A DNA stretch of 64,000 nucleotides from NCBI GenBank assembly GCA_016946835.1, contig JACVTC010000166.1, positions 201,501-265,500 of the forward strand, read 5' to 3'. Positions 2,616 through 51,030 of the stretch are shown piece after piece. Source of the DNA: Neocallimastix lanati (nom. inval.). Taxonomy: Eukaryota > Neocallimastigomycota > Neocallimastigomycetes > Neocallimastigales > Neocallimastigaceae. The notes under the pieces were generated by a model. That model ran no database searches. It had not been told where the DNA came from and saw nothing but the letters and a program-made list of their open reading frames with translations. Position 1 is the first letter of the stretch; every line of letters starts with the position of its first letter. The translations under genes were made by a program, and so were the position numbers.

Positions 2616-2643
2616 GATTAAGAGTCTCAATCTACTAATTGAG
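2616..2643 (+). promoter_or_regulatory. A1 primer binding site (half tRNA-Lys)
   Basis: GATTAAGAGTCTCA directly abuts the LTR. It is complementary to UGAGACUCUUAAUC, the 5' side and loop of the tRNA-Lys(CUU) anticodon arm. The following CTCAAT...ATTGAG also resembles the complement of the D arm. This implies that a 5' tRNA half cleaved in or near the anticodon loop is the primer, as known for Drosophila copia (there with initiator tRNA). Confidence 0.75.
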
Positions 2644-2846
2644 TTTGAATTAAAATAAAGTTAAGTTATAATATAAATTAAATTTTTCTATTTTTACCTT
2701 TCAATAAAACCAAAGAACTAATAAATTATTATTTTTATTATTTATTGTATTTTATTTATTACCGAATCAAATCCATAAGAAATAAAGATATTTTTTTTTA
2801 ATCAACAATAAATAAAATTATAGTTAAATTGTTAAATAATAAAATT

Positions 2847-3081
2847 AATATCATCAAGATGAAAAATTTATTGTCAACTGATGATATTAATATTAAAATA
2901 AAATAAAAATGATATCATCAAGATGAAAAATTTATTGTCAACTGATGATATTAATATTAAAAATAAAATAAACACAGTATCATCAAGATGAGAAATAAAT
3001 AGTCAACTGATGGTACTAATATTAAATTAAATTAAATCTAATATCATCAATATGAGAAATAAATAGTCAACTGATGGTATT
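2847..3081 (+). repeat. A1 leader: four tandem hairpin units
   Basis: Four units of the form A(A/G)TATCATCA, a 22-nt loop, then TGATGATA(T/C)T, separated by AT-rich linkers. The loops are of two types (GATGAAAAATTTATTGTCAAC and GATGAGAAATAAATAGTCAAC, shown without flanks). Two units of A1 have TGATGGTA, which leaves a G-U pair in the stem. Confidence 0.85.
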
Positions 3082-3583
3082 TAGATAAATTTGAAACTAA
3101 AATATTATTAATATAAAAAAAATATAAATAAATTAAAATAATAATAAAAAAACTAATTATATGTATTAAATAAAATTTTGAATAAATCACATTATATAAT
3201 ATATCAAATATATTAAAATGAAATTATAAAACTAATCAATGAATAAAAAATAAAAAATCTAATCAAATAATAATCACCTTTTATTTAATCAAAATTAATA
3301 ATAAATTAAATAATATAAATGCCTTATTTATTAAAGTTTGGTATTACAATACTAAATGAGATAAAAATAGTAACAAATTAATGAAATCAAATTTAAGTAA
3401 AAATTAAAATGAGAATTTTTAATATAACAAATTAATACTAATAAATTAATAAAATTTAACAGAATTAAATATTATAATATTTTTTTAAAACTACTAAAAT
3501 ATTTTTATTAATTGAGATTTAAAAAACAATATATAATTAATTTAAAACAATAATAAAAATTTTAAATTTCAAAAGTACTCGAA

Positions 3584-6500
3584 ATGGCTGGAAGAAGAAG
3601 AAACCAAGAACAAGTTATCAACCTCACCGGAGAAGATATTACACATAACGGAATAACCTTTAATTATTCCGAAAATTTCAACCAAATTACTGAACTAAAT
3701 ACAGAAAACTACCCTGGTTGGAGAAGAAAAATTCTGTATTTGCTAACAATAAATAAATTAACCAAATATGTCCTTCATCCAATTGTAAAGAAGTTAAGAA
3801 AGAGAGATATAAGAGAAGAATTAACAGATTACCCGGAGGATCAATTTGATAGTTCGTTAGTTTATGAAAAGAACACTAAAAACATTGATATAACTAACGA
3901 CATCACGGCCAAATGGATTATCATAAATGGGCTTGGAGAACAAACACAAAAACTAATAAATGGAAATGAAAAGACCGCTTTTCAAATTTGGAACATCTTC
4001 CAAGAATCGTTTACCAAAAGCAAGGAAAGAAGAAAAATCGAAATCCAAAACAAAATTGAAACAATGAAGTTTGACACCAAGACCGATATAAATATATTCA
4101 TTGCCAATTTGCAAAATTTAATAGACGAACTTGAGAAAATTGACAATGACCTTAGTATAAATACAAAAATCGGCATTCTAAATAGATGCTTACCTGAAGA
4201 TCTAAGGTGGATAAACGTCTTTCAACATAAGAGTTGGGAATCATGCTGCACCTATGTTAAGGAAATCATCCCTAATATCGTTTTATCTAATTTAAAAGAA
4301 AAAAATTCAATTCAGGAAAACAACAATAATGTTCTCTTCAATGCTGAAACAATAAAGAGCAAGAATTATCGAAACAATAATAGAACTAAAGGTAAAAGAA
4401 AAAGCCTCAAAAGGAATAGTGGAAGATGTAACTATTGTGGAAGAAGAGGACATTACTTCTATGAATGTAAATTCAGAAAAAATAATTTATATAAAAATCA
4501 AAACAAAAATAAATTTAATAAAAGAACTAAAAACAAAAGAAAATTTCAAAACGATATTAATTATGTGAACACTAATGATGCCTCTTCAAGTAATTATGAC
4601 ACAATATACGCAGATGCCTTTACTAAAGATTATAATACAGAAAATAATATTGAATTAAATTACTGTAACGTTGAAAAAGAATTTTTAAATGAAGATAGTG
4701 ATAAAAATTTTCTTTCATGTTGGATTTTGGACTCCGGTGCTTCAATCAATATCACAAGCAATCTTAATCTTCTAATAGACATAAAAAAATGTAATGAAGA
4801 AATTAATCTAGCTAATGGACAAATAATTACAGCTGTCCATAAAGGAAAATTTAAGGGGTATGTAAACAACAATGAAATAATACTTAATGAGGTATACTAC
4901 TCTCCAGCCATCAATAAAAATTTAATATCCATATACAAATTACTAAAAGAAAATTATAAAATTGTTTTTAATAACTCAAATAATAAATCATATGCAATCA
5001 TTTACAATAGCAACAATAAAAGAATAGTTAACATTACTGCAACCAAGACTAATACATTTAAAATTTGGTTTTCCAATAATAAAATAAATCTCAATAATAA
5101 TAACAATCAACATAATAATTTAGAAATAAATTTCACTACACCAAATGCAGTAAAGAGATTAAATTTATGGCATAGAAGATTATGTCATTTTGATATTAGC
5201 CATATTAAAAATAAATTATTAAAACTTAATACACCAGTTAATCAATGCCTAATTTGTATAAATTCAAAATTTAAAAATAAACCATATAAGCAAGCAATAA
5301 ATAAGTCGAAACATATATTTGAATTACTTCACATGGACTTGGTTGGTCCTCTTCCTGAATCACTTTATGGTAACAAATATCTTTTTACAATATTCGATGA
5401 CTATTCACGCTATGGATGGACTTTGTTTTTAAAATCTAAAAGTGACACCTTTAACTCATTTTACAATTAGTTTTTTAAGTATTAAAAATAAGTATAATAC
5501 TAGAATTATATATATTCGAACGGATAATGGTACAGAATTTTGCAATAATAATTTTAATTTATTCTTTAAATCTTATGGTATCAAACATCAGCTAACTGTA
5601 CCATATAACCCACAACAAAATGGAAGAGTGGAACGATTCAATGGCACCCTAATTAATTCCGCCAAAGCTATGCTGAATGACTCTAAACTTAGTCACCAAT
5701 TTTGGGAAGATGCTACCTCTACTGCTAATTATATACATAATCGCATTCCACACAAAGGAATAAATATGAAAATACATTATGAAATAATTAACAAAACAAA
5801 GGTCAACTATTCAAATATTAAAGTATTTGGATGCAAAGTTTATTTCTTTATTCCTAAAGTCTTTAGATCTAAATTCGATAACAATACTAAACCAGGGATT
5901 TTTCTAGGATACTCTGAAAATCCATCAGCTTACAAAATTTTAGATATTACTACTAATAAAATAATCCTATCTAGATCTGTTGCTTTTTTCGAATCCGATC
6001 CTGGAAACAGTTATCTTAAAGAATGCTCACCTGAATTTTCCAATTTTATTCCGGATCACGAAATCAGAGGAGATAATACATATAATACATACTATAATAA
6101 AAATACATACGATACCAATACATATAACATTAATCATAATATTCAACAAAGATTAAATAAAATTGATCATCCAGGTTCTAATGAATTTTTTAATTCAGAA
6201 AACATCCTAAGTAATTCACCAATATTAAATAATAGCAATATACAAAATATATACGAAGATATAATCAATAAAAATAATTCTAAGAATAAAAGAAAATATA
6301 ACAAAAAACAAAGAAATAATAATTACAGTAACAATAATAGTAACAATAACAATGAAAATATCAATAATAATAACCATAACAATAATTTCATTAATAATAA
6401 TACAAATAATAATAATAATATAAACAATAATAATATTAATAATAATGACATAACCAATAATAATTTTATCAATAATAATAATATAAATAATAATAATAAT

Positions 6501-8374
6501 AATAATACAAATAATAGTAATAATCAAATTAGAAATAATAATAATATTATTGAAAATAATAATAATAGCCAAAATAGAGAAGATACTAATAATAAAATAA
6601 ATGATAATACAACCAATAAAACAATCAATAACAATAATAATATTGAAAACAGCAGAGTAAATGACAAAAAAATTATCAATAAAAATTATATTCAACGTAA
6701 TGAAAACGAAATTATAAATACTTTATTGACTAATAACAATTCATTTAAATTAAATAATATCGAGACCAATAATAAAAAAAGAACTATGAATGTTATAAAT
6801 GAAAGTAATAACAAAAGAAGAAAGACAACAAATACCTTAAGAGAACCAGAAAATTATAAAAACATTCAAAATTTAACTTATAGAAAAGAGTGGATTAATA
6901 CAGAAAATGAAGAATTAAGTAATATGAAAAACTTAAATGTATTTAATACAATTAAATATATACCCAAAAATGCCAATGTAATTTCCTCACGATGGATTTT
7001 CAAATATAAAAGAAATGCAAATGGCGTGATAACAAAAAGAAAGGCAAGATTGGTAGCACGAGGTTTTACCCAAAAACTTGGAATAGACTTTCATGATAAT
7101 TTTGCACCAACGTTAAAACACGACTCTATCAAAATTTTAACTTCAATTGCTGCCTAAAATAATTTTAATATAGAACAAATTGATATAAACTCTGCTTATC
7201 TTAATGCCAAATTAAGTGAAAATATTTATATGAAACCTCCAGAAGGTCATACATATTTTAATAGAAAATACTGGAAATTAAACAAGGCTATATATGGTCT
7301 GAAACAAAGCGGACGAGAATGGAACAAAGAAATTAATAAATTCTTAACTAAAATAGGACTTAGAAGAATGGTAAGTGAACCATGTATTTATGTAAAAAAT
7401 GGTAAGAATAAAAATATTTTATGTATCGTCGGTATTTATGTTGACGATATTTTAATAGCTGGAAAGGAGAATGAAATTAAATGTATAAAAGAATATTTCA
7501 AAAGAAAATATAAGATAAAAGAAATTGGCGACGTTGATTTCGTTATCTGACTAAAATTTGTTAAACACAAAAATGGATATTTTATACATCAAAAAAGATA
7601 CATTACAGAGGTTTTAGAAAAATTCAATATGAATAATGAAAAGCCATTAAGAAATACAAAACAAATTATGGCCGACAAACTTAGAAATATAAAATTTAAT
7701 CAAACTACCTACCGAAGTGCAATAGGAAATTTACTCTACATTGCTATATGCACCAGACCTGATATTCTATTTTCGGTAAGTAAAGCAGCACGAAAATCAA
7801 ATAATCCGAATATGGAAGACTGGAACAATGTCGTAAGAATACTAAGATATCTTAAAGGAACAACGAGTTACGGGATAAACTATACAAGGAAACTAGGAAT
7901 AGAAGCCTTTGTTGATGCCGACTTTGCAGGAGACACTGAAACCAGAAGATCAACAACAGGTTTTTTAGTAACCATGGGCAACGCACCAACTAGCTGGTGT
8001 TCCAAGCTACAACACTGTGTGTCAACATCTACTGCAGAATCGGAGTATTATAGTCTGAGTGAATGTGGCAAGCACTGCATTTGGTATTTAAACTTAATGA
8101 AAGAATTATATTATAATATTAAATGTATTAAAATAAAAATAGATAACAAAGCTGCTATATTCAATAGCAAAAATCAATCCATTAATCCGAAGTCAAACAT
8201 ATTGATATAAGAATTCATTATATTAGAGAAATAATAAATAAAAATTTTATAAAATTAGAATATATTCAATCTCAAAATAATTTGGCCGATGGATTCACTA
8301 AATATTTAAACAACACCCTTATGGAAAAATTTAGAAATTCTTTGTTATATAAAATTGAGGATTTAAAATTTTAA
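3584..8374 (+). pseudogene. A1 gag-pol polyprotein (broken)
   Basis: Copia-type Gag, protease, integrase, reverse transcriptase and RNase H in order. Visible motifs: zinc knuckle CNYCGRRGHYFYEC, protease WILDSGAS, integrase RTDNGTEF and NGRVERFNG, RT YVDDI, RNase H FVDADFAGD and DNKAA. Lesions against A2/A3: a Trp codon turned TAG plus a 1-nt insertion near 5468; CAA to TAA at 7155; GGA to TGA at 7548; an indel near 8191 shifting the last part of the frame. It keeps the Arg codon CGA (7000 region, SSRWIF) where A2 and A3 have TGA. Its stop codons differ from those of A2/A3, so it decayed separately. Confidence 0.9.
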
Positions 8375-8399
8375 TTCTAAAAATATAGTTAAAATTAAA

Positions 8400-9341: not shown

Positions 9342-9548
9342 TGTTAGAAACAAAAATAATAAGATTTATAGTTATATTATTTAAAGGAGTAATGTTATAT
9401 AAATTAATATATTAGTGTAAGATATGTGACCAATAGTAACAAAAAGCCACATATTATTTTTACTATAAATACTATAAAGAAGTATAAAATTATGTATGTA
9501 TACTATTCTTTATTCTTATATAATAAAAAGAGATTTATACTTTTCACA
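9342..9548 (+). repeat. D1 5' LTR
   Basis: Starts TGTTAGAAACAAAAAT and ends ACTTTTCACA; 207 bp. Confidence 0.92.
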
Positions 9549-9577
9549 GATTAAGAGTCTCAACTCTTCAGTTGAGC
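9549..9577 (+). promoter_or_regulatory. D1 primer binding site
   Basis: GATTAAGAGTCTCA plus ACTCTTCAGTTGAGC. The first 14 nt are complementary to the tRNA-Lys(CUU) anticodon arm. The rest, with the following TATCC, resembles the complement of its D arm. The second part can also fold on itself (CTCAACT/AGTTGAG). Confidence 0.75.
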
Positions 9578-9888
9578 TATCCATAAAGCTAAGTTGAAAT
9601 ATATAAAATATAAAATCATTTAAATATAAAATTATTACTAATCAAACTAATAAATATATATTTTTATTATTTTTATAAAATTTATTATAGAAGCAAAACG
9701 TAATAACCAATATCCATAAGAAAATATTACTGAACAATTGTGAGAATGTTAAGGATATAAAATTTAAAATAAAATGCTTATTGTAATAGGTCATAGTTAT
9801 TATTAATTATTAAAAATAAAAAATGATATAAATACATATACATATAATTTGATAAAAAGAAAATATTAAAACAAAATAATAGTCAACT

Positions 9889-10170
9889 AGTCTATCTAAG
9901 TTGAGAATTATTGAAAATAAAAAATAAATGTCAACTAGCTAAGCTGTGAATAATTGATAATAGAATAAAAATAATTGTCAACTAGCTAGGTTGATTAACA
10001 ATAAAAATAAAAATAATTATTGATTAGTTTATCTAAGTTGTAAATAATTAACTATAAAATGATTGTCAACTAGATTAACTAAATTGAAAATAATAGAAAA
10101 TAAAAATAAAAATAATAGTCTAACCAGTGAAGTTTTGAATAATTAAATTTAAAATAATAGTCATTTTAAG
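9889..10170 (+). repeat. D1 leader repeats with hairpin potential
   Basis: About six divergent units separated by AT linkers, centred on GTCAACTAG ... CTAAGTTG (for example 9892-9914). The arms are partly complementary (CAACTAG against CTAAGTTG with a 1-nt bulge). The architecture resembles the A and B leader arrays but is more decayed. Confidence 0.6.
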
Positions 10171-11139
10171 TTATTAAGACTAAGAATTATCAATTACAAA
10201 TAATCTGTTTATTCAAGTTAATTAATAATAACTATTTTTAACTAAATATTAATGAAACACATAAAATAAAAAATTAACAACTAATTGAAAAAGAGACAAA
10301 TAAAAATGATTTATAAAAATTAATATTAACATTAATAAATAATATAAACATAATTTATTTTTAATATAAATAAATATATAATTAATAAAATAATAAAATT
10401 ATTAAATATTAAATAATATATCCTTACACACAAAATCCGTTCTGACATTATACAATTCAAAATAATTTAAAAGATATAATATACATTTATTATGAATCAA
10501 CTTAATTTTTAATATACAATAAAATACCATCAAGAAAAATTAACAAGTAATTAACGTTGAAACTAGAAACAATCCACAGAAAATATAATAATAGAAATTT
10601 TAATAATTAAAGTTTTACACTAAAATTTTAACAAATAATGTTCAAGAAATAAATTAAAATTAAAGTATCCGAGAAATTATTTTTAACAAAACTTTTATAA
10701 TCAATAAAATTTTAATTTATTATAATATTTTTATTTAATATATTTCAAATTTTAATTTATAATAATTTTAAAATGTCCAATTATATCAATCTATTAAAAA
10801 TAATATTAATGATTTATTAAATTAAAATTAAATTAAATTCAATCAATAATATAAATTTCATTATTTTTGCTAAACTTTAATCAATAATATTTAATACATT
10901 CCATCAATATTAATAACAATTTAAAATATTTTTAAAAAAATTATATTATTAATAATATATAATATTTATAAAAATCTAATCTATCATTTATTAATCTAAA
11001 TTTTGTTAAATCTCGAAACTTGATGTTTAAAATATTTATATAATTTTTTTATAACATATTTATTCATATAAAACCCATTTATATATCATTAACAATAATA
11101 GGGAAGATTAAATTTAGATAATCTATATAAAAAATTTAA

Positions 11140-11290
11140 AATATATTATTTTAATTATTTATTATTCTCCAAATCAATGCTTAACATCTAAACATAAATG
11201 GGAATCATATATATATTTATATATAAAAAAGAGGTAGGAGATTTAAATGCTATTAAAAATATGATCGTTAATACCAGAAAACCTATGAAT
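11140..11290 (+). pseudogene. Captured fragment, possibly glycosyltransferase-derived
   Basis: A broken frame reads NQCLTSKHKWESYIYLYIKK followed by EVGDLNAIKNMI and RKPMNRFGVTF. It resembles the minus-strand fragment at 150-480 (SNQYLTHEYK, ESYKYLYTK, EVGELRY), whose upstream part looks like a glycosyltransferase module. No start, stop or catalytic motif is visible here. The family assignment rests only on that link. Confidence 0.35.
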
Positions 11291-11728
11291 AGATTTGGAG
11301 TTACGTTTATCCTTCGCAATTTATTATTATTTAAAAGATATTACTTTGAATTAACAAATAAATGACAAATGCGTTGTAGATTTTGAAACAGTGTTATATT
11401 TATTTTATAAAAATAATAATTAATTTAATGGAGATATTCTAGTAATACATGATGACAAATACAGCATTTTATCAAATGAATTAAATTTTATTATTTATAA
11501 TTAGTAAAAAAAAAAAAAAAAAAAAAAAATAATAATAATAATAAAAAACACACATTATTTAAATACAGTTATATACAATACTCTTAATATAATCAATATA
11601 TATATATAAAAAAAAAAAAAAAAAAAAAAAAAATATTATATTAGTATAAATGTAATAATCAACATTAAACCAATATTATAAATTATATATTGTTATAGTT
11701 TTGTAATTTTTTTTTTATTTATTTTCAG

Positions 11729-11967
11729 CTTGCTTTAATCAAGATTTTAAAGAACAAGTTAATGCTCAGTTTGGCTTTTTCTAACCAGTTAAAACTGTTG
11801 ATCCAAAGGTTGATACAACTATTGATATACTTAATAGATTGAAGAAATATATCAAACAACCGAAGACAATATTAAAAAGATGATTAATTGTATGAAAACA
11901 ACTATGAACGAACAAAAGCGATTTGCCTTTGTATCTAAAGATGCAAAATCAAAAGGAGATAAAGTTG

Positions 11968-12008
<41 letters not shown>

Positions 12009-12462
12009 ATAAATCTTGTTAGTTATTCTTTAAGTTCAAGTTCTAAAGATATTAATTATTTATACTTACCTGTTATGGAAAACTTCCATGAATGGCTAAA
12101 AACTTTCTTAGATAAAACTATTCGTGATGCCGAAGATCCTGTTTACAATTATAATAATGTTCGTACTGAAATGGATATTACTACTCAAATGATTGCTCAA
12201 ACAAAATAAAGATTAAGTACCGAAATTAATGGCATTCAAGAATGTAGACGTGCTATCTCAATATTAAGGGAACATGAACAATTATAAAATAAAGAAGGAT
12301 AAATATGAATTATTATGTGAAGAAGTCATTAAAAATATTGAATTATTAGAAGCTAAGGGTAAGGCTGATATACCAAATTACCTTCAATTTATGTATGATT
12401 CTATGAATATTTTCTATCATCAAACAATAAATTATTTCCCAGAAAGTGATTCATATAAATAA
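11729..12462 (+). pseudogene. Captured BAR-domain-like host gene fragment
   Basis: Three frames together give a BAR-like helical protein: FKEQVNAQFGF, KTVDPKVDTTIDILNRLKKY, then ENFHEWLKTFLDKTIRDAED, MDITTQMIAQTK, GIQECRRAISILREHEQ and finally ELLEAKGKADIPNYLQFMYD and the end at 12462. The xTVDPKxD block near the start and the long amphipathic helices resemble fungal amphiphysin/Rvs-type BAR domains; that is inference. It begins right after TTTATTTTCAG, a good 3' splice site, so part of an intron seems retained. It is broken by several stops and frameshifts and by a poly(A) run (11971-12004) encoding poly-Lys. A second copy lies in D2 (45788-46014). Confidence 0.6.
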
Positions 12463-12733
12463 AAAATAATAATAATAATAAAATAAGATAAAAAGACATA
12501 ATAATAATTTAAGTAAAGAAAGATTAATAAATAATTTTAATAATAAAAAAATAACTCCAATCCAATTTGAAAGTAAGGGGAAACGTTAGAATTTAAAGTA
12601 TATAAAAAAATTTCTTAAGTTTACAAATAAAAATAATAATAATTCTTTTCATATACTTAATAATATGTTAGTTGTATTATTATTAAAAATATTATTTTAT
12701 ATAGTAATACATTTGCAATATTTCTCTTCAACT

Positions 12734-12767
12734 CTAACTTTCACCCAAAGTTAGATTTGAGGGGGAA
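12734..12767 (+). promoter_or_regulatory. D1 pre-PPT hairpin and polypurine tract
   Basis: CTAACTTT (12734-12741), loop CACCC, AAAGTTAG (12747-12754), a perfect 8-bp stem, followed by ATTTGAGGGGGAA and the 3' LTR. Confidence 0.8.
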
Positions 12768-12974
12768 TGTTAGAAACAAAAATAATAAGATTTATAGTTA
12801 TATTATTTAAAGGAGTAATGTTATATAAATTAATATATTAGTGTAAGATATGTGACCAATAGTAACAAAAAGCCACATATTATTTTTACTATAAATACTA
12901 TAAAGAAGTATAAAATTATGTATGTATACTATTCTTTATTCTTATATAATAAAAAGAGATTTATACTTTTCACA
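12768..12974 (+). repeat. D1 3' LTR
   Basis: 207 bp, same ends as the 5' LTR, followed by the target duplication AATTC. Confidence 0.92.
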
Positions 12975-14703: not shown

Positions 14704-17700
14704 ATGTTGGGTTGGAAATATTTGAGGTAACTATCTCATAAATTATTGATTAAATTTTATAAATAGAAGAATTTTTTTTACTTGATTTATACAATTTATA
14801 CATATTATTTAAATTATATTATTATTTATATTTTTTAACTTCTATAAATTATTATTTATTTTAATATATTTTATTAATAATAAAATTAATAGCCTTGTAG
14901 GACTACTTATATTCCTAAATATATTTGAAGTAAAAGCTGACGATGATACATCTATTACAAGTAAATGAAATAAAAAAAATATTTATTAATTTAAAATTGT
15001 AGAAATAGAAAAAAAGAATCATATAGAAATAAAACAATTTTATAATATATAAAATATTGAAATTTATTTATTATTCATTTTATTAAGTATTATCACATTT
15101 AGTAAAAAAGATTTAAATAAAAATATAGTTTTTATACAAATCTTTTAAATTTTATATCTCATATATAGCTTATATGTTTTTAAACCATATAAATAATATT
15201 TAATTATTTTATATATATTATTATAGATTAATATTTAAATAAAATAAAAAGAGATATTATTTTATTTTATGTATAATAAAATTAATTCTAATTTTGTTTT
15301 TATAATTATTTTATTCTATTTTATAAAATTTTTAATTTTTTTATAATACAATTCTTTGCTAAAAGCTCTTCCACCGTGTAGTGTACCAGGTTCTGATGAG
15401 GGTTCTAATGAAGGATCATTAGAAGAAGATTTACTTTGTCTTGAAGGTTCAGTGTTATACAATGTTGGAAGTACTGAACCAGTTGAAGGTTTAATTGAAA
15501 ATGAATATATTGTTATAAATTGTCTTTTTGATGAAGAATGTACTAGAGTTATGAATTACAATGAAATAGATAGAGATGATGATTTATTAATTTACCAATA
15601 TGGTAATGGTAAAGTGACTAAAAAAAAGAGCTTTACATATTTAGATACTAATGAAAAAAAATTAATTACATGTAATAGTGAGGGGGCATGTTTATTAGAA
15701 ACAAATGAAGGTTACTACGTTAATGATGTAAGCAAATCCTCTGTCATTGATAGTCCCTTAATTAATATTGATAATGGTGATGCTACTCCAGTGGCTAATG
15801 TTCAACCAGGAAATACATATGCTGGTGTTGATTATAATGTTATTGAATGTAAAACTGTATCATCAATGGTGAAATGTACTTCCAGATTAGGTAGATTGGG
15901 TGAGATTTTCGTTAATTCTGCTGGTACTGGTTTAGAGGATGCTTTAATTGAATGTAGTGAGGAACTACCAGAAGATGGAGGATCTGATTCTGGAAGTGGA
16001 TCAAATGAAGATTTACCTGATAAGGAAGTTTATTGTTATCCGAAGGAAGCAACACCAAAGGAATACTATTTAAATTCTGGACTAAATAGAACTACCAAGC
16101 CATTAATTGAATGTAACGATTCAAAATGTGAAGAAAAAGTAGGTGAATCTGGTGCAAACTATTTGAATGCAGCAAGTGATAGTTTGACAGATGCCATCAT
16201 TTTCTGTTCCAATAACAAGTGTGAAAAGCAAACACCAGCTGGTGTTAATAAATACTATGTAGGTAAAGATGGAGATGATGTTGATGGTTTAATTGAATGT
16301 TTAGCTGGTGAAGGATCAGAAGAAGGACAGTGTAGTTTGAAGTCAGCCTTTACTTCAGAAGGTTATTATTTGAATAGTGGTTACAATAAATCTGTCAATC
16401 AAACCATCATTTGTGATTCTACTGAAGGTTGTAATGCTTTGAAGGTAGATCTTGGTTACTATGTCAATGCTGGAAATACCGAAAAGCCGATCATAAAATG
16501 TGAAAAGGAAGGTAATGAATGTGTTGAGGAAGCCTCTTCTGCATGTCCGGAAATCTCAAAGGCAGTTCCAGGAAATTATTGTTATGAAAGTGGTCAATTG
16601 AAATTCTTTACAGTCAATAATTCTACAGCTATTACTGCTACTAGATCTGATAATATCTATGCTTATGCTATTATTCCAAGTTATGGATTCCCAGGTATTA
16701 AGACAGAAACAGGTTCTTTATTCAAGATATCTCGTTTCTTCATCACTCGTTACTATAAAAGTGGTATCATCATGCTTGATAAGAATGGTAAATTAGTGGA
16801 TAGCTTAGATGGCGATACATCGGACATTACGCTCTTTGACTGTAATGAAACAACAAAGAAATGTAATGAACGTGAAGGATGTACTTCAAATACATACATG
16901 TTTGATTCAGAAAGTGCGAAGGTTGTTTTCTGTAATGATGGCAAATTAGAATATGCTAAATTCACTGGTTATGTCGTTGATGCTAATCGTTTTGGTAGTG
17001 GTACTAAACATCCATATATTATTCAATGTAAAGGAGGTGAAAATTGTATCAGTATAAAACCTAAAGTTTCTACTTATTATGAAAACAATGGATATGATTC
17101 TAATATAAATGGTTTAATTCAATGTAACAGTAATAATTGTATGACTGTCGCTGCTAAAGTTGGATACTACGTGGCTCATGGAGAAAATGAAAATGCAGGT
17201 ATTATCAAATGTACTTCTAATACGAGTTGTTCTTATATTCAAGTCAAGAATAAGGTAAAGTATGTCAATGCTGGATATGACAAGAAAAATAATGCTATCA
17301 TTGATTGTTATCGTGGTAAATGTAGTGTTGCTAAAGCCAAATCAGGATACTATCTCACTCATACTAGTACTCTTTTGATTCAATGTACTAGTCCAACTTC
17401 ATGTGCTGAATTTACTCCAACCGTCAATTACTATGATAACGCTGACTCCTCAGAAAGTAGTAACACCATTATCAATTGTGTCCAAAACAGTAATGTGGTA
17501 ACTTGTTCTTCGGAAGCCACGAACAATGGTTTCTACTTGTCTAGTATATCAAATGTTTTAATTCGTTGTAAGAATGGTCAAAAATGTAAAACTATTGTTG
17601 TTAAGAATGGTATCTTTAGAGGTGCTTTCAAGGGACTCACTTCCAATAAACGTTCTGAAAATGTTAAAAACGTCCATGAACGTACTGATGATGATTTAGA

Positions 17701-19534
17701 GGAAGATGGAAAGATGGTCAACTTGAGAGACAATAATGATGATGCTTATGGTATTATTCGTTGTGTTGCAGGTAAATGTGCAGCTCTTTCAGCTAGTGAA
17801 TTAGCAGCCATACCAATGTGTGAATTTAATAACAATAAATGTTACATTACTCTTGAATATGCTATGACTAAGACTGCAACAACTTCTATTGCTGCTGGTA
17901 ACATTTGTACTAATAATGATCGTTCAGTCTTCTATTTCGCTACAGATACTGTTGTCGTTAAACCAAATGTCATTTCTGGTGTCACTTCCACTTATGTCTA
18001 CACAACCACAAATACAAATTGTCTTGAAGTCAACGATTCCTATAACGATATGTTCTTTACTGTCGGTTCCAATATTTACACTCTTGACCAAGGTAGTGTC
18101 TTCCAATACTATGAAACCGGTTATTATTTCATTAATGTAGCGAAGAATACTCTTGTCGGAGGTAATGAAATTGATGCCTACAATGATGAAAATGTAAAGC
18201 TTTATCGCTGTAATGGAAATAGTTGTAGTATCATTGACAAGCCTGATGCAAACACTTACTACGCTGATGTTAATAAGCGTATCTTGAAGTATAATGTCAA
18301 TAATGATATATTCTCATTTGCTTATGAAAAAGATATTCTTTGTATCTTCTCCAATAATAAATGTACACCAAATGCTGATATGAAAGATCAAGAATTTTGT
18401 ATCACATACAAGGGTGAAATTGCTCTCACTACCGCTGATATAAAGAATCGTGAAACTGGAGAATGTTATCGTGCCAATAGCATTAGTAACTACATTTACG
18501 GTTATTCTCAGCACCTCTACCATATGAACCAATTTGCTGCTGAAATGGTCGATCAAACTGGTTTCTATATTATCAGTCTCTCGACAAACACCACAGTGGT
18601 CAGTAAGAACTACAAAAATAAGAATAATAGTATTGTGATTTATGGTTGTACCCTTTCCTCTTGTAAGGTCTATGAACCTCGTGAAGATACATATTATTAT
18701 GATGCCCAAGCTAAGAACATCTTAAGATATAGAAATGGTGTATGGAACTCTCCAAGCACTTCTGGTTTTGCCTATATTGCCTTAGATCCATTGAATACAT
18801 ACATTTACAAATTCGAAAAAGAAGGAGATGAAATCACCATTCAAGGTAAAGCAAATTACGGTTACTACTACACGATTGATAATGAGATGTATAAATGTGA
18901 CGAAGAAGATGGAGAATGCAAACTCATTGATAGAACTGGTTACTACTTTACTAATTCTGGTGAAGTTTACAGTTGTGTCTATGATTCTGAAGGATTGGAA
19001 GCCACCGAATGTGTTAGGAAGAACTGTGTCAGTGGACAATACTACTACATTGATGAGGCCTACTACCGCTGTGAAGTCAGCTCACTTCTGGTCCCTGTTG
19101 TTTCTCGTTACTGCTCCTATGATGAAAATGTTGTTATGAACTTCCCACTTGCTTTAACTGAAGAATTGCCAGATAAAATTAAACAAGGTATTGATGATAT
19201 TCAGAAGAATAACAACTCCACAGCTGTCGTCAAACGTCGTGGTAAGAACTACCTTGAATCCATCAGTGGTATTTTCACTAACTGCACTTACAATGTTGAG
19301 GAGACAAAGTCCACTTTTGATCTCGTCTGTCTCAATAACTATGTTGCTGTGGATGAAAAAACAGATGAAGTAAAGATCTGTAATGTGGATCAACTTGGTT
19401 ATGTTGAATGTGTAGAAGATGAGGAAAATCCAGAGAAATGTACAATTAGTAAAGCCTTCCATTCCAGGAAATCATCACTCTTCTTGACAATTGGTGTTCT
19501 TTTCTTCGGTGTTCTGATGAATGTGTTCTTTTAA
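14704..19534 (+). CDS. Secreted Cys-repeat protein, scaffoldin-like
   Basis: Three exons by eye: 14704-14726, 14893-14960 and 15366-19534 (or 15390-19534; both acceptors keep frame). The join gives MLGWKYL, then LVGLLIFLNIFEVKADDD, a clear signal peptide; splice sites are GAG/GTAACT, AATAG/C and CAA/GTAAAT. About 1419 aa. The body is many divergent units of about 35-45 residues of the type GYYVNxG...xxLIxCxxxxC, acidic, without enzymatic motifs. It ends in SLFLTIGVLFFGVLMNVFF, a membrane or GPI-type tail. Such Tyr/Gly/Cys repeats with signal peptide and C-terminal anchor are the pattern reported for gut-fungal scaffoldin (ScaA) proteins, which would bind dockerin-tagged enzymes at the cell surface; assignment by resemblance only. 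Codon use is richer in GC than the flanks. Alternative: another cell-surface repeat protein. Confidence 0.65.
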
Positions 19535-21519: not shown

Positions 21520-21738
21520 GCTCAATCTGATGAGATTGAGACTTTTAATCTTTTAAAAATAATAATCTAATTTTTGGTATTGATAAGGAGTTGTAATTAT
21601 TAAAATTTTTCTATAGTTGTTTTATTAAGGTTAAGTAAATATTATTGGTTATATTACTTGATAATATATATATTAAAAATGTATTATAAAGCTCCTTAAT
21701 ATAGTATATACAAAACTTTAATACTTATATTTCTAACA
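21520..21738 (-). mobile_element. Family H 5' LTR with PBS, minus strand, interior lost
   Basis: The LTR is 21551-21738 (reverse complement starts TGTTAGAAATATAAGT). It is followed at 21520-21550 by a PBS GATTAAAAGTCTCA, one mismatch from the GATTAAGAGTCTCA of other families, then CTCAATCT/AGATTGAG, which can pair. No coding interior follows on the left. Confidence 0.7.
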
Positions 21739-26270: not shown

Positions 26271-26298
26271 GATTAAGAGTCTCAATCTACTAATTGAG
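26271..26298 (+). promoter_or_regulatory. A2 primer binding site
   Basis: Same as in A1: GATTAAGAGTCTCA, complementary to the tRNA-Lys(CUU) anticodon arm, with zero spacing from the LTR. Confidence 0.75.
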
Positions 26299-32444: not shown

Positions 32445-32935
32445 ATCAAAAATAACTATGACCTATTACAATATATTCTCACCATTGTTTTGTAATATTT
32501 GTCTATTAATATTGGTTATTACGTTTTGTTTCTATAATGAATATTACGAAAATAATAAAAATATAATTTTATTAGTTAGGATATTAATGATAAATTGATT
32601 TTATGTTTTATTTATTCCAACTTAGCTTTATTGATAGCTCAACTGAAGAGTTGAGACTCTTAATCTGTGAAAAACAAATTTATAAATCTAAGACAAACAT
32701 TGTATTAATAAAAACAATATAACAAAGTATTTTATGTTATGAGTAATATTATAAAATGCTTATTAATAATTTTTATTATAAGGATATATATATCTATCTA
32801 AGAGATATTTTTACATTAAATTTATTTCATATTTTTATATCTTAGATAACATTATTTAATTTACTTAGAGATTAATTATTGGTTGATATAAATTAATAAT
32901 ATAAATAAATGTATGTAACGATTTTGTCTCTAACA
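32440..32935 (-). mobile_element. Family E 5' LTR, PBS and partial leader, minus strand
   Basis: The LTR is 32666-32935 (270 bp; reverse complement TGTTAGAGACAAAATC ... TTTTTCACA). The PBS is 32637-32665, identical in its first part to D1 (GATTAAGAGTCTCA, then ACTCTTCAGTTGAGC). The leader to about 32440 resembles the D1 leader just after its PBS (shared AACAAAACGTAATAACCAATAT). The rest of the element is missing; a poly(T) tract and the end of A2 lie on the left. Confidence 0.85.
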
Positions 32936-37334: not shown

Positions 37335-37968
37335 TGTTGGAAATAAAAACAACATTCATTTTTATTATTAATTTAAATATATCCAATTATTTGTTATGAA
37401 TAAATTAATGTATTGTTTCATGAATGATATAAATTATTCTATGATTCATAAAAATAAAATTTCTCTTCTTAATCTTTTTATTGATAATTATAAATTCAAA
37501 ATAAAACTAATAAAAGATTACATAAATTAAAACTTTTATATTTGGTGTTTAAAATTGTTCTTAAAAGATTAAGAGTCTCAACTCATCCAGTTGAGCAATA
37601 TATCAAAGCTAAGTTGAAATATTTAATAATATATATATATTTATAACTATAAATTTCATATACTTAATTTTTTTTTAAATTTACAGGAAACGATTTTTTT
37701 TTTGAACCAGAACCATCAATTACAAAATTTTGAGGACATAATAATAAATAAATTAACATATATAGATAGTAACATATATAATAATGAAATAAAAATTAGA
37801 TTATTTCAGATAAACACTCCTTAAAATAATTAATTAAGATGAAAATAATTGATAGTCATCTAATTAAGTTACAAATTTAAGACATAGAGTCAACTAATAA
37901 ACACTAATTTGAAAATATAAATTGAATGATAGTCAAATAGTGGTTGTTAAGTTGAAAATAATAATGAT
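37335..37968 (+). mobile_element. Family C 5' LTR, PBS and leader (truncated)
   Basis: The LTR is 37335-37566 (232 bp; TGTTGGAAATAAAAACAAC ... TTGTTCTTAAAA), nearly identical to the 3' LTR at 62743-62974. The PBS is 37567-37596 (GATTAAGAGTCTCA, then CTCAACT/AGTTGAG). The leader holds loose GTCA(T/A)CTAAT ... AAGTT repeats (37850-37960). It is cut at 37968 by a B-family fragment; no coding part remains. Confidence 0.85.
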
Positions 37969-38376: not shown

Positions 38377-38570
38377 TTTTAGACACATTAATGTTTATAA
38401 TAGTTTAATTTATTTATATTATAGATATTTTATTATTTATTAATATATATTTTATAAAAATAGAACTAAAGAAAAACATATTCATTTAGAAAGCTTTTAT
38501 ACATGAATATTATTTATTAAACTAATTGATTGGTTAATATAAAATGAAGTATAGTAAATATATTTTAACA
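38377..38570 (-). repeat. A3 3' LTR
   Basis: 194 bp; the same length as the 5' LTR and apparently almost identical. Confidence 0.92.
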
Positions 38571-38609: not shown

Positions 38610-38635
38610 TTTAATTTTAACTATATTTTTTAGAA

Positions 38636-41600
38636 TTAAAATTTTAAATCCTCAATTTTATATAATAAAGAATTTCTGAATTTTTCCATAAGAGTGTTAT
38701 TCAGATATTTAGTGAATCCATCGGCCAAATTATTTTGAGATTGAATATATTCTAATTTTATAAAATTTTTATTTATTATTTCTCTAATATAATGAATTCT
38801 TATATCTATATGTTTTGTCTTCGGATTAATAGATTGATTTTTGCTATTGAATATGGCAGCTTTGTTATCTATTTTTATTTTAATACATTTAATATTATAA
38901 TATAATTCTTTCATTAAGTTTAAATACCAAATGCAGTGCTTGCCACATTCACTCAGACTATAATACTCCGATTCTGCAGTAGATGTTGACACACAGTGTT
39001 GTAGCTTGGAACACCAGCTAGTTGGTGCGTTGCCCATGGTTACTAAAAAACCTGTTGTTGATCTTCTGGTTTCAGTATCTCCTGCAAAGTCGGCATCAAC
39101 AAAGGCTTCTATTCCTAGTTTCCTTGTATAGTTTATCCCGTAACTTGTTGTTCCTTTAAGATATCTTAGTATTCTTACGACATTGTTCCAGTCTTCCATA
39201 TTTGGATTATTTGATTTTCGTGCTGCTTTACTTACCGAAAATAGAATATCAGGTCTGGTGCATATAGCAATATAGAGTAAATTTCCTATTGCACTTCGGT
39301 AGATAGTTTGATTAAACTTTATATTTCTAAGTTTGTCGTCCGTAATTGGTTTTGTATTCCTTAATGGTTTTTCATTATTCATATTGAATTTTTCTAAAAC
39401 CTCTATAATGTATCTTCTTTGATGTATAAAATATCCGTTTTTGTGTTTAACAAATTTTATTCCGATAACGAAATCCACCTCTCCAATTTCTTTTATTTTA
39501 TATTTTCTTTTGAAATATTCTTTTATAATTTTAATTTCATTCTCTTTTCCAGCGATTAAAATATCGTCAACATAAATACCGACGATACATAAAATGTTTT
39601 TATTTTTACCATTTTTTACATATATACATAGTTCACTTACCATTCTTCTAAGTCCTATTTTAGTTAAGAATTTATTAATTTCTTTATTCCATTCTCGTCC
39701 GCTTTGTTTCAGACCATATATAGCCTTGTTTAATTTCCAGTATTTTCTATTAAAATCTGGATGACCTTCTGGAGGTTTCATATAAATATTTTCACTTAAC
39801 TTGGCATTAAGGTAAGCAGCGTTTATATCGATTTGTTCTATATTAAAATTATTTTGGGCAGCAATTGAAGTTAAAATTCTGATAGAGTCGTGTTTTAACG
39901 TTGGTGCAAAAGTATCATGAAAGTCTATTCCAAATTCTTGGGTAAAACCTCGTGCTACCAATCTTGCCTTTCTTTTTGTTATCTCGCCATTCGCATTTCT
40001 TTTATATTTGAAAATCCATCATGAGGAAATTACATTGGCATTTTTGGGTATATATTTAATTGTATTAAATACATTTAAGTTTTTCATATTGCTTAATTCT
40101 TCATTTACTGCATTAATCCATTCTTTTCTATCGATTAAATTTTGAATGTCTTTATAATTTTCTGGTTCTCTTAAGGTATTTGTTGTCTTTTTTCTTTTGT
40201 TATTACTTTCATTTATAATATTCATAGTTCTTTTTTTATTATTGGTCTCGATATTATTTAATTTAAATGAATTGTTATTAGTCAATAAAGTATTTATAAT
40301 TTCGTTTCCATTACGTTGAATATAATTTTTATTGATAATTGCGTTGTCATTTACTCTGCTGCTTTCAATATTATTATTATTATTGATTGTTTTATTGGCT
40401 GTATTATCATTTATTTTATTATTATTATCTTCTATATTTTGGCTATTATTATTATTTTCAATATTATTATTATTAATTCTAATTTTATTATTACTATTAT
40501 TTGTATTATTATTATTACTATTATTTGTATTATTATTATTATTATTATTATTTATATTATTATTATTGATAAAATTATTATTGGTTATGTTATTATTATT
40601 AATATTATTATTGTTTATATTATTATTATTATTTGTATTATTATTAATGAAATTATTGTTATGGTTATTATTATTGATATTTTCATTGTTATTGTTACTA
40701 TTATTGTTACTGTAATTATTATTTCTTTGTTTTTTGTTATATTTTCTTTTATTCTTAGAATTATTTTTATTGATTATATCTTCGTATATATTTTGTATAT
40801 TGCTATTATTTAATATTGGTGAATTACTTAGGATGTTTTCTGAATTAAAAAATTCATTAGAACCTGGATAATCAATTTTATTTAATTTTTGTTGAATATT
40901 ATGATTAATGTTATATGTATTGGTATCGTATGTATTTTTATTATAGTATGTATTATATGTATTATCTCCCCTGATTTCGTGATCCGGAATAAAATTGGAA
41001 AATTCAGTTGAGCATTCTTTAAGATAACTGTTTCCAGGATTGGATTCGAAAAAAGCAACAGATCTAGATAGGATTATTTTATTAGTAGTAATATCTAAAA
41101 TTTTGTAAGCTGATGGATTTTCAGAGTATCCTAGAAAAATCCCTGGTTTAGTATTGTTATCGAATTTAGATCTAAAGACTTTAGGAATAAAGAAATAAAC
41201 TTTGCATCCAAATACTTTAATATTTGAATAGTTGACCTTTGTTTTGTTAATTATTTCATAAGGTATTTTCATATTTATTCCTTTGTGTGGAATGCGATTA
41301 TGTATATAATTAGCAGTAGAGGTAGCATCTTCCCAAAATTGGTGACTAAGTTTAGAGTCATTCAGCATAGCTTTGGCGGAATTAATTAGGGTGCCATTGA
41401 AGCGTTCCACTCTTCCATTTTGTTGTGGGTTATATGGTACAGTTAGCTGATGTTTGATACCATAAGATTTAAAGAATAAATTAAAATTATTATTGCAAAA
41501 TTCTGTACCATTATCCGTTCGAATATATATAATTCTAGTATTATACTTATTTTTAATACTTAAAAACCAATTGTAAAATGAGTTAAAGGTGTCACTTTTA

Positions 41601-43453
41601 GATTTTAAAAACAAAGTCCATCCATAGCGTGAATAGTCATCGAGGATTGTAAAAAGATATTTGTTACCATAAAGTGATTCAGGAAGAGGACCAACCAAGT
41701 CCATGTGAAGTAATTCAAATATATGTTTCGACTTATTTGTTGCTTGCTTATATGGTTTATTTTTAAGTTTTGAATTCATACAAATTGGGCATTGATTAAC
41801 TGGTGTATTAAGTTTTAATAATTTGTTTTTAATATGACTAATATCAAAATGACATAATCTTCTATGCCATAAATTTAATCTCTTTGCTGCATTTGGTGTA
41901 GTGAAATTTATTTCTAAATTATTATGTTGATTGTTATTATTATTGAGATTTATTTTATTATTGGAAAACCAAATTTTAAATGTATTAGTCTTGGTCGCAG
42001 TGATGTTAACTATTCTTTTATCATTGCTATCGTAAATGATTGCATATGATTTATTATTTGAATTATTAAAAACAATTTTATAATTTTCTTTTAGTAATTT
42101 GCATATGGATATTAAATTTTTATTGATGGCTGGAGAGTAGTATACCTCATTAAGTATTATTTCATTGTTGTTTACATATCCCTTAAATTTTCCTTTATGG
42201 CCAGCTGTAATTATTTGTCCATTAGCTAGATTAATTTCTTCATTACATTTTTTTATGTCTATTAGAAGATTAAGATTGCTTGTGATATTGATTGAAGCAC
42301 CGGAGTCCAAAATCCAACATGAAAGAAAATTTTTATCACTATCTTCATTTAAAAATTCTTTTTCAACGTTACAGTAATTTAATTCAATATTATTTTCTGT
42401 ATTATAATCTTTAGTAAAGGCATCTGCGTATATTGTGTCATAATTACTTGAAGAGGCATCATTAGTGTTCACATAATTAATATCGTTTTGAAATTTTCTT
42501 TTGTTTTTAGTTCTTTTATTAAATTTATTTTTGTTTTTATTTTTATATAAATTATTTTTTCTGAATTTACATTCATAGAAGTAATGTCCTCTTCTTCCAC
42601 AATAGTTGCATCTTCCACTACTCCTTTTGAGGCTTTTTCTTTTACCTTTAGTTCTATTATTGTTTCGATAATTCTTACTCTTTCTTGTTTCAGCATTGAA
42701 GAGAACATTATTGTTGTTTTCCTGAATTGAATTTTTTTCTTTTAAATTAGATAAAACGATATTAGGGATGATTTCCTTAACATAGGAGCAGCATGATTCC
42801 CAACTCTTATGTTGAAAAACGTTTATCCACCTTAGATCTTCAGGTAAGCATCTATTTAGAATGCCGATTTTTGTATTTATACTAAGGTCATTGTCAATTT
42901 TCTCAAGTTCGTCTATTAAATTTTGCAAATTGGCAATGTATATATTTATATCGGTCTTGGTGTCAAACTTCATTGTTTCAATTTTGTTTTGGATTTCGAT
43001 TTTTCTTCTTTCCTTGCTTTTGGTAAACGATTCTTGGAAGATGTTCCAAATTTGAAAAGCGGTCTTTTCATTTCCATTTATTAGTTTTTGTGTTTGTTCT
43101 CCAAGCCCATTTATGATAATCCATTTGGCCGTGATGTCGTTAGTTATATCAATGTTTTTAGTGTTCTTTTCATAAACTAACGAACTATCAAATTGATCCT
43201 CCGGGTAATCTGTTAATTCTTCTCTTATATCTCTCTTTCTTAACTTCTTTACAATTGGATGAAGGACATATTTGGTTAATTTATTTATTGTTAGCAAATA
43301 CAGAATTTTTCTTCTCCAACCAGGGTAGTTTTCTGTATTTAGTTCAGTAATTTGGTTGAAATTTTCGGAATAATTAAAGGTTATTCCGTTATGTGTAATA
43401 TCTTCTCCGGTGAGGTTGATAACTTGTTCTTGGTTTCTTCTTCTTCCAGCCAT
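38636..43453 (-). CDS. A3 Gag-Pol polyprotein with one in-frame TGA
   Basis: Open from ATG (43453) to the stop at 38636 except for one TGA (40019-40021 on the minus strand), at the same codon as in A2 (SS-stop-WIFKYKRN). All motifs of the A2 protein are present: zinc knuckle CNYCGRRGHYFYEC, WILDSGAS, RTDNGTEF, NGRVERFNG, YVDDI, FVDADFAGD. The poly-Asn linker (about 40316-40800) differs from A2 by several Asn/Ile codons in number. Apart from the TGA the frame looks functional. Confidence 0.92.
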
Positions 43454-43956
43454 TTCGAGTACTTTTGAAATTTAAAATTTTTATTATTGTTTTAAATTAA
43501 TTATATATTTTTTTAAAATCTCAATTAATAAAAATACATTAGTAGTTTTAAAAAAAAATATTATAATATTTAATTCTGTTGATTTTTATTAATTTATTAG
43601 TATTAATTTGTTATATTAAAAATTCTCATTTTAATTTTTACTTAAATTTGATTTCATTAATTTGTTACTATTTTTATCTTATTTAGTATTGTAATACCAA
43701 ACTTTTATAAATAAGGCATTTATATTATTTAATTTATTATTAATTTTGATTAAATAAAAGTGATTATTATTTGATTAGATTTTTTTATTTTTTATTCATT
43801 GATTAGTTTTATAATTTCATTTTAATATATTTGATATATTATATAATGTGATTTATTCAAAATTTTATTTAATACATATAATTAGTTTTATTATTATTAT
43901 TTTAATTTATTTATATTTTTTTTATATTAATAATATTTTAGTTTCAAATTTATCTA

Positions 43957-44396: not shown

Positions 44397-44618
44397 CTCA
44401 ATTAGTAGATTGAGACTCTTAATCTTTTAGACACATTAATGTTTATAATAGTTTAATTTATTTATATTATAGATATTTTATTATTTATTAATATATATTT
44501 TATAAAAATAGAACTAAAGAAAAACATATTCATTTAGAAAGCTTTTATACATGAATATTATTTATTAAACTAATTGATTGGTTAATATAAAATGAAGTAT
44601 AGTAAATATATTTTAACA
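44397..44618 (-). repeat. A3 5' LTR with adjacent PBS
   Basis: LTR 44425-44618; PBS 44397-44424, reading GATTAAGAGTCTCA then CTCAAT/ATTGAG on the minus strand. Confidence 0.88.
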
Positions 44619-46333: not shown

Positions 46334-46541
46334 TGTTAGAAACAAAAATATAAAGATTTATAATTATATTAATTAAAGTAATAATGTTATATATATTAAT
46401 ATATTAATGTAAAATATGTGACAAATAATAATAATAGACTATATATTATGTTGACTATAAATACTATAAAAATGTACAAAATTATATGCAAATACTATTC
46501 TTTATTCTTATATAATAAAAAAGAGATTCCTACTTTTCACA
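46334..46541 (+). repeat. D2 3' LTR
   Basis: TGTTAGAAACAAAAATATAA ... CCTACTTTTCACA. Confidence 0.88.
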
Positions 46542-49110: not shown

Positions 49111-50384
49111 GAGCGAGATGTAGAGACACATAAAGGAGAAAATTCAATAGGTTTAAACTATCTGTATAAATAATTCGTTTTATTAAAAATATTTTTTATT
49201 AATTATAAAATTTAAAGTAATTATTAATATTAATCAATAAAGGTAATATTTCGAATTACTTATAAGTTAATTATTATAAATAAAATCACTAAGAAAAAAT
49301 ATTTTCATTCGTGAAGTTCGCACTATTTATACTTTTAACGGAAAAACAGTTTTAACATGTAAAAATAATTTTAGAGAAATATTTAGAAATATGTTTATAA
49401 TAATTAATAATGTAAAGTTTCTAGAATATAGATTTTAATTGATCAAAATGAATCTTATCGATAAAAAATAAAATAATTTATATAATAAGATTTTCTAAAT
49501 TCATTTCAGTTAAATTACAAACCGAAAGAGTCTTTAACTTACTATAATTATATACAGAAAGAATATTCAAAAAGATATTATTAATAATTAATAAAATAAT
49601 TATTTATGCAAAATGGGTTGAGGTGTACATAAAATATTGTTCATTGTTAAGGTAACTAACCATTAAACAAAGTTTCTAATTTTACTAACTGTGTGATAAA
49701 GAATAGAATAATAATGATATTTTTAATTAAATTCTTAATAATTTATTATATAAAAATATATTATTATATTCTTTACTATTAATAATTTTCTTATATTCTA
49801 TATATTAATTATATTTTATAATTTTAAATATTAATTTATGTAATTAATTAATTTATATAATTGGATTTAATAATGTAATTAAATAATATAAAAATATGTA
49901 TAATCCATATTTTATATGAGGGGGCCTTTCTGAGGAAAGAATTAGGAGATATAGTATTGATAATAAAATAGGAATAATAAATAGAAAGGTTTCTCATATT
50001 GTTATAAAAATAAATATTAATATTAATAAAGTTATTTTTAACAATAAAATAGTTATATAATTAATAAATAATAAATATTTATAATAATAGTTCTTTAAAT
50101 AAAATTTATAATGTGTAGTAATAATTTTTTTAGTGTAATTTAGTTAGTTAATTTATCTATTTATTAATGTTCACACTCCTTTTACAATATGAGCCTCAAC
50201 ATGTGACAAATCTTGATTTATTTTAGAGATTTATTTTATTATTTAATTTCATATAAAAATTGTTTAATATACTTTATAAATATATATAAGTATATAAATC
50301 TTTATTAATTTATTTATTCATTTATTATTATTAAAATTTTTTTTTATTCAAAAGAGAGAGATTAAAAATATTTTTTAAAATTAT
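49111..50384. other. AT-rich stretch, possible further LTR
   Basis: No gene seen. On the minus strand, near 50167, ATATTGTAAAAGGAGTG is followed by TGAACATTAATAAATAG, which could be a polypurine tract and the start of another LTR running to about 49910 (GAGGGGGCCTTTCTGAGG region). No second copy or ends were found, so this stays a suggestion. Confidence 0.3.
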
Positions 50385-50654
50385 TGTGAAAAACAAATTT
50401 ATAAATCTATTACAAACACTGTATTAATAAAAATAATATAACAAAGTATTTTATGTTATGAGTAATATTATAAAATGTTTATTAATAATTTTTATTATAA
50501 GTATATATATATTTTTTCTGAGAGATATTTTACATTAAATTTATTTCATATTTTTATATCTTAGTTAACATTATTTAATTTACTTAAAGATTAATTATTG
50601 GTTGATATAAATTAATAATATAAATAAATGTATGTAACGATTTCGTCTCTAACA
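50385..50654 (-). mobile_element. Second solo LTR of family E
   Basis: 270 bp, target duplication ATTAT (50380-50384, 50655-50659). Confidence 0.92.
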
Positions 50655-50756
50655 ATTATTATTTTTATATTCTAAAATTGGTGTAACAACAATATCCAAT
50701 CAGTAATAATAATAAAATAATAATTATAATTTTATAATAAAATATTCTTTAGAAAT

Positions 50757-51002
50757 TGTTAGAATATAAAAAAAAAAAAAATAAATACTTAATAATGACT
50801 TTAATATATTTTACCCAATCAGAATATTATTATATTTAAATAAAATTATAAAAGAAATAAAATGTAACCTTGTTAAAAAACATATACACTTTTGTAATTA
50901 TAAAAAATAAAGATAAATAAAATTAAATATTAAGTATTATATATGAAATGCTATTCTAAAAATGTATCTAATTTTCTCAATATTTGTTTTTGGTGTTTAA
51001 TA
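50757..51002 (+). repeat. B1 5' LTR
   Basis: TGTTAGAATATAAAA ... GGTGTTTAATA. Confidence 0.93.
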
Positions 51003-51030
51003 GATTAAGAGTCTCAGTCTACAACTGAGC
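51003..51030 (+). promoter_or_regulatory. B1 primer binding site
   Basis: GATTAAGAGTCTCA followed by GTCTACAACTGAGC. It is complementary to the tRNA-Lys(CUU) anticodon arm and, after a small gap, to the D-arm sequence GCUCAGU. Internal pairing CTCAGT/ACTGAG is also possible. Confidence 0.78.

Follow-up and report, generated by a model that had tools for sequence, protein, structure and literature searches.

Copia-type elements of the gut fungus Neocallimastix lanati carry a primer-binding site complementary to the anticodon arm of tRNA-Lys(CUU)

We analyzed a window of 64,000 nt (the whole stretch of DNA examined, about 20% GC) from contig JACVTC010000166.1 of Neocallimastix lanati, in which retroelements with long terminal repeats (LTRs) share a 14-nt primer-binding site (PBS), GATTAAGAGTCTCA. 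This PBS is the exact complement of nucleotides 27-40 of the tRNA-Lys(CUU) encoded in the same genome, UGAGACUCUUAAUC, which form part of its anticodon arm. Judged from the sequences, the copia-type elements very probably start minus-strand DNA from a 5' half of tRNA-Lys(CUU) that ends at C40, and strong-stop copying of this half would end at N2,N2-dimethylguanosine in position 26 (m2,2G26).

The PBS was found at eight places in the window, seven times exactly and once, in element H, with one mismatch. On the forward strand it occupies 2616-2629 (A1), 9549-9562 (D1), 26271-26284 (A2), 37567-37580 (C) and 51003-51016 (B1), and on the reverse strand 21537-21550 (H), 32652-32665 (E) and 44411-44424 (A3). 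When the window was shuffled 100 times and up to two mismatches were allowed, the mean number of matches was 0.54 and the largest count 4. The eight positions proposed in an earlier reading made from the letters alone (the sequence-only reading) were thus borne out. The context on both sides of the site varies from element to element. The same reading had counted six LTR families; clustering of the sites by simple similarity resulted in five window clusters, with D1 and E joined.

The genome comprises 199 Mb in 762 contigs. A search with the 17-base anticodon arm of tRNA-Lys(CUU), a pattern that misses tRNA genes with an intron in the arm, gave 73 matches. Thirty of these were read and contained the identical tRNA, with UGAGACUCUUAAUC at nucleotides 27-40 in every copy, and ARAGORN identified tRNA-Lys(ctt) in 10 of 10 loci. 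Of the 12 tRNA species compared, Lys(CUU) fitted the PBS best (14/14), followed by Arg(UCU) (11/14). The 3' ends of the same 12 species, a part of the tRNA set of the genome, matched the PBS at 5 of 14 positions at most, and TGG, the partner of the tRNA CCA end, is absent from the site. Neither of the findings that were to overturn the proposed tRNA, a fungal tRNA-Lys(CUU) lacking the arm or a better-fitting 3' end, was made. A pattern for the half of initiator tRNA-Met, written independently of the initiator tRNA of this genome, had no genome match. tRNA genes on contigs C188 and C251 (L015-L033) form arrays of alternating orientation in steps of roughly 5.4-5.7 kb, and many tRNA matches lie close together on contig C555.

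Genome-wide the 14-mer is present in 1902 copies, of which 73 are the tRNA-Lys genes, leaving about 1800 (1829) elsewhere. The same 14-mer read backwards had no match, and the corresponding arm of tRNA-Arg(UCU) gave 68, 62 of them at known tRNA places and the other six unread. We collected 55 sightings of the site from the window, from 30 loci of contig C1 and from loci chosen by their reverse transcriptase (RT). The 55 include sites that fell into two overlapping loci and were sighted twice; tRNA genes and short-flanked sightings, L096 included, were dropped. Simple similarity of context reduced them to 29 clusters, not every one of which is proven to be an LTR element. The base preceding the site is A in 28 of the 29 clusters, and in the loci read the 14-mer stands behind many LTR ends that cannot be aligned to each other. 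Seventeen of the 30 C1 loci had copia gag/pol homology to A3 or B1, counted irrespective of strand and distance, with identities as low as 25-31% in some of them. In locus L040 (about 1427-1501) the LTR end and PBS are tandemly duplicated, 74 bases apart.

Relatives outside this genome were sought in two ways. A 16-base pattern scan of the viral_contigs collection returned 19 stretches, a number within chance by our own rough estimate, and none had B1 pol homology at E<=1. When B1 pol was scanned at the protein level, no relative turned up in the collections covered, which included no other gut-fungus genome.

The site was associated with copia and not with gypsy elements. For this comparison we used contigs C1-C11, where the listing of PBS places is complete, and the best 150 RT matches of each type. 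A same-strand site was located 2.7-5.3 kb upstream of seven of the eight listed copia RTs, whereas none of the nine listed gypsy RT_RNaseH matches had a site within 10 kb (one-sided p 0.0004, a value that flatters, since by score four of the seven appear to be a single family and each RT list is limited to its best 150). Three gypsy loci, two of them among the nine, were read directly, and an exact Lys-half site was absent from their element strand; one had two weak 12/16 matches to tRNA 3' ends. We also chose 20 of the best 150 copia RTs by hand from different score groups, one of which (C290) had been seen before. Eleven of these had an exact site 3.9-5.6 kb upstream, while the other nine reached 10/14 or less in that stretch; two of the nine were inspected nearer in, and an exact site was found in both. 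In total the site was present in 13 of 20 loci, always with 14/14 and never with 11-13 matches. The claim that all families share it was therefore too strong.

Three window elements show how the site is placed. A3 has a 194-nt 5' LTR (44425-44618, reverse strand) identical to its 3' LTR (38377-38570, reverse strand) and is flanked by the target duplication CTTAT. D1 has 207-nt LTRs (9342-9548 and 12768-12974, forward strand) that are likewise identical, with the duplication AATTC. The LTRs of B1 are at 50757-51002 and 57070-57316 (forward strand, duplication GAAAT); 235 nt of the 3' LTR, counted from the LTR end, equal the 5' LTR, and the 3' copy is one base longer in a run of A. These paired LTRs with 5-base target duplications, a trait of the Pseudoviridae, set the distance between PBS and LTR to zero in all three. 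The assertion that every site starts directly at an LTR could thus be confirmed for A3, B1 and D1. For C, E and H no second LTR of fitting position and orientation was found in the window; an LTR similar to that of C sits 25 kb away. No target duplication was seen in the flanks of A2.

Only four of the eight window sites (A1, A2, A3 and B1) head copia open reading frames. In B1 gag (52328-53398) is followed by pol (53399-57016), together 52328-57016 on the forward strand, with the integrase before the RT as in Ty1/copia. The A3 coding region (38636-43471, reverse strand) consists of two open pieces, gag with integrase core and SH3 (40019-43471) and the RT RVT_2 (38636-40018). A2 also has two open pieces of copia type (27289-32136, forward strand), and A1 has several (3566-8210, forward strand), of which the first two are copia type by Pfam and the last (7551-8210) has no match. 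The Pfam order gag_2, rve, SH3, RVT_2 was found in B1, A2 and A3, and by their Pfam matches A1, A2, A3 and B1 are classified as Ty1/copia (Pseudoviridae). The pol proteins of A3 and B1 are 59-65% identical. D1 (9342-12974) is small but complete: its LTRs are identical, and a target duplication and the PBS are both present. It has no match to the A3 or B1 proteins and is a non-autonomous element that has retained the tRNA-Lys site. An in-frame TGA was observed at the same place, the start of the RT domain, in A2 (30751-30753, forward strand) and A3 (40019-40021, reverse strand), in the latter even though its two LTRs do not differ. The codon might be recoded, or the elements might be helped in trans.

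The match to the tRNA has a sharp edge. Where the remaining 13 bases are exact, nucleotide 27 is faced by A in 1902 sites and by another base in 32 (98% fit). The adjoining position, opposite G26, has C in 146 sites genome-wide, including the 73 tRNA-Lys genes (30 read, all C). Outside these genes it matches in 73 of 1829 sites (4%) and in two of the 29 clusters, which is chance level at the GC content of the window. An apparent avoidance of C facing G26 (73/1829, binomial p against 10%) was dropped, since copies of a family are not independent and the clusters gave 2/29. In retroviruses, 1-methyladenosine 58 (m1A58) of the primer tRNA sets the 18-nt length of the PBS. A match that is full to nucleotide 27 and gone at nucleotide 26 is likewise the expected residue of primer copying up to m2,2G26. 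In a Schizosaccharomyces pombe study, misincorporation at G26 was seen in 27 of 36 tRNAs with G26 and was ascribed to m2,2G26, which impairs base pairing (PMC4697793). TRM family matches were found in pieces at two places of our genome, C699 and C745, which suggests that the m2,2G26 enzyme family is encoded, and tRNA-Lys(CUU) of this fungus presumably carries the modification.

From the sites, their edge, the matching tRNA and the copia association in the loci compared, we infer a cut, a cutter, a priming step and a copying step. tRNA-Lys(CUU) would be cleaved behind C40, at a point two bases into the 3' strand of the anticodon stem, leaving a 3'-OH, and the resulting 5' half would prime minus-strand DNA synthesis. 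The anticodon arm of the half, joined in some lineages by the D arm, would pair with the element RNA. Plus-strand strong-stop DNA would then copy the half tRNA until m2,2G26, so that each cycle would renew nucleotides 27-40 of the site and nothing beyond. A renewal of this kind would account for the sharpness of the match and for its identity from family to family. The sequence-only reading had assumed cleavage in the Lys anticodon loop. The zero spacing between PBS and LTR instead places the predicted cut at 40/41, in the anticodon stem, although trimming of the complementary DNA (cDNA) end by integrase would be compatible with a cut one or two bases before that. An RNase leaving a 3'-OH would be required; RNase P hyperprocessing, as reported for Ty5, is the likeliest candidate.

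The similarity had also been said to continue, less exactly, into the complement of the D arm. We aligned seven window sites, with A2 omitted as a twin of A1. All seven share TGAG, complementary to tRNA nucleotides 11-14 and starting 10-13 bases past the site, with a CTC/TCT block ahead of it that can face nucleotides 21-25; in D1 the extension with its CTC and TTGAGC blocks lies at 9563-9581 (forward strand). CTC or TCT within 10 bases past the site was found in 22 of the 29 clusters (shuffles: mean 4.1, maximum 13). Some clusters carry GACTCTTAA-like stretches that may fold back on the PBS, and these contain CTCT and thus blur this count. The energy of a duplex with tRNA nucleotides 1-26 was better than that of mononucleotide shuffles at p<=0.023 in eight of 29 clusters, and the summed energy of the 29 was reached by none of 300 shuffles. 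All five window clusters but only three of the 24 others reached this level (combined p for the 24, 0.019), so that the D-arm similarity holds for the window more than for the genome at large. PBS-complementary GACTCTTAA-like stretches were observed just downstream of the site or at the LTR end in L058, L042, L043 and L039, where they could hold the PBS in a hairpin.

TGAG occurs in seven of the 29 clusters (shuffles 1.3, maximum 6) and GCTAAG/GTTAAG in five (shuffles 0.2, maximum 3), both mostly in window clusters, and the window families for this reason look like a single lineage. All five window clusters have TGAG downstream and four of the five have GCTAAG/GTTAAG; by these motifs they are probably not independent of each other. 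The independence of the sites therefore rests on the remainder of the genome and not on the window clusters.

Several observations weigh against priming by the tRNA-Lys(CUU) half as laid out above. A D-arm signal specific to one tRNA was sought among the clusters and not found, tRNAs with a like D arm scoring equally or better: local-alignment totals to the D arm were higher for tRNA-Ala than for Lys(CUU), and summed duplex energies were better for tRNA-Lys(UUU) and tRNA-Ile. The end of the site facing nucleotide 40 departs from G in 162 sites, about five times as many as the 32 at the end facing nucleotide 27. The edge at nucleotide 26 coincides with the foot of the anticodon stem, and a primer starting at nucleotide 27, or a limit to pairing, would give the same edge, while m2,2G26 in tRNA-Lys(CUU) is itself presumed. 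Finally, seven of the 20 RT-chosen copia loci had no site in the stretch read (best 10/14), and neither did the copia RT at C2:2099676 within 10 kb, so some copia elements may use another primer.

The sharp edge at nucleotide 27 fits equally well the start of a 14-nt fragment of the anticodon arm, and the primer might be such a shorter tRNA fragment (nucleotides 27-40 only) or another small RNA with the same 3' end. A short piece would lack the D arm, yet the eight clusters that pair with it (five of five in the window, three of 24 elsewhere) and the summed energy reached by none of the 300 shuffles indicate contacts there, even if the signal is not Lys(CUU)-specific; we consider this alternative very unlikely. 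Somewhat less probable still is inheritance of the 14-mer from one ancestral copia element, with its retention a matter of chance or of some other function, for instance in RNA packaging. A single origin would agree with every protein-identified user being of copia type and with the leader motifs common to the window clusters. However, the flanks differ between clusters while the 14-mer is exact (it was pattern-selected in the C1 loci but not in the RT-chosen ones), protein identity to B1/A3 goes down to about 24-30% in several loci, and the 14-mer sits at the LTR edge, just where a PBS belongs.

The least probable of the alternatives, and close to being dismissed, is self-priming of the Tf1 type, in which the element RNA folds its 5' end back onto the PBS and a cut there provides the primer. 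Partial PBS complements do lie just downstream of the site in L058 (9 nt) and L042 (8 nt), and L039 has one at its LTR end. Seven window stretches of 194-247 nt ahead of the PBS (complete LTRs in the case of A3, B1 and D1, and the final 200 nt in that of A2, C, E and H) had, however, a longest complement of 5-8 nt, as in shuffles. As far as these stretches cover the RNA start, no RNA 5' end complementary to the PBS was seen. Nor does self-priming predict one 14-mer behind unrelated LTR ends, and that 14-mer is exactly a tRNA arm.

Priming by the 5' half of tRNA-Lys(CUU) remains the reading that we prefer. In its widest form, essentially the whole copia complement of the genome would depend on this half, with the PBS length set by m2,2G26 and the cut made after C40 with a 3'-OH; we put this forward tentatively, at a little less than an even chance. 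If true, one host tRNA fragment serves deeply diverged copia families. By the preferred reading itself, an elongator tRNA-Lys joins the few known half-tRNA primers, on a scale (about 1800 sites outside tRNA-Lys genes) that brings statistical power, and a specific tRNA-cutting activity is predicted in this fungus. The sharp edge at G26 offers a testable link between a tRNA modification and primer-site length in a retroelement. PBS finders limited to tRNA 3' ends would miss such elements.

Other features of the window and genome were recorded in passing. Window positions 15347-19534 hold an open frame of 1395 aa with cysteine-bearing repeats, judged from the translation, and no Pfam match, and positions 23259-25763 hold a frame of 834 aa with two glycosyltransferase-like parts, GT92 first. 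Many CBM_10/fungal-dockerin matches were found in the genome (150 scored of 1440 candidates) and none in 14 control genomes; like the low GC content and the genome size, they suit an anaerobic gut fungus (Neocallimastigomycota).

Drosophila copia and yeast Ty5, members of the genus Hemivirus, are Ty1/copia elements primed by half of the initiator tRNA-Met, and the tRNA of Drosophila copia is cut after nucleotide 39. The elements described here resemble them in type and in the putative use of a half tRNA but differ in the tRNA, an elongator Lys(CUU), with a cut that we place after nucleotide 40. The classical Hemivirus trait of an initiator Met primer is thus missing, the PBS fitting Lys(CUU) at 14/14. 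Candida albicans Tca2/pCal, also a fungal copia element, reportedly uses an internal part of another tRNA, the elongator tRNA-Arg(UCU) anticodon arm, and the Tca2 paper gave no confirming passage. Arg(UCU) is the next-best fit to our PBS (11/14), and its arm, unlike that of Lys(CUU), lies mostly at tRNA places in this genome (62/68).

According to the profile by the International Committee on Taxonomy of Viruses, Hemivirus-type priming uses only a short internal tRNA segment (PMC8515867); this is what our PBS shows, an internal segment being matched and the natural 3' end not. In Ty5, RNase P is considered to make the cut, which lies within the anticodon loop (PMC5371799). The same paper describes pairing of element RNA and tRNA in two segments for Ty1 and Ty3 (PMC5371799). 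The putative pairing by anticodon arm and D arm resembles these bipartite contacts, but Ty1 and Ty3 prime from the natural 3' end of the tRNA.

In the literature searched, which covered few subscription papers, we found no earlier mention of a half tRNA-Lys primer. The sequence-only reading knew of no elongator Lys tRNA half shared by all families of a gut fungus, but the use of an elongator-tRNA half as such has a precedent: in a plant survey, half-tRNA PBSs are given for about 2% of elements, Osser, Bryco and a part of Gymco-II having half tRNA-Met and Bianca half tRNA-Ile (PMC6317226). As in Bianca, a plant Ty1/copia lineage (PMC6317226), the half of an elongator tRNA would serve copia elements here. 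Unlike in Bianca, the host is a fungus, the tRNA is tRNA-Lys, and 13 of the 20 copia loci chosen by RT have the site. Priming by half of tRNA-Lys(CUU) would thus be a variant of the established half-tRNA priming of copia.

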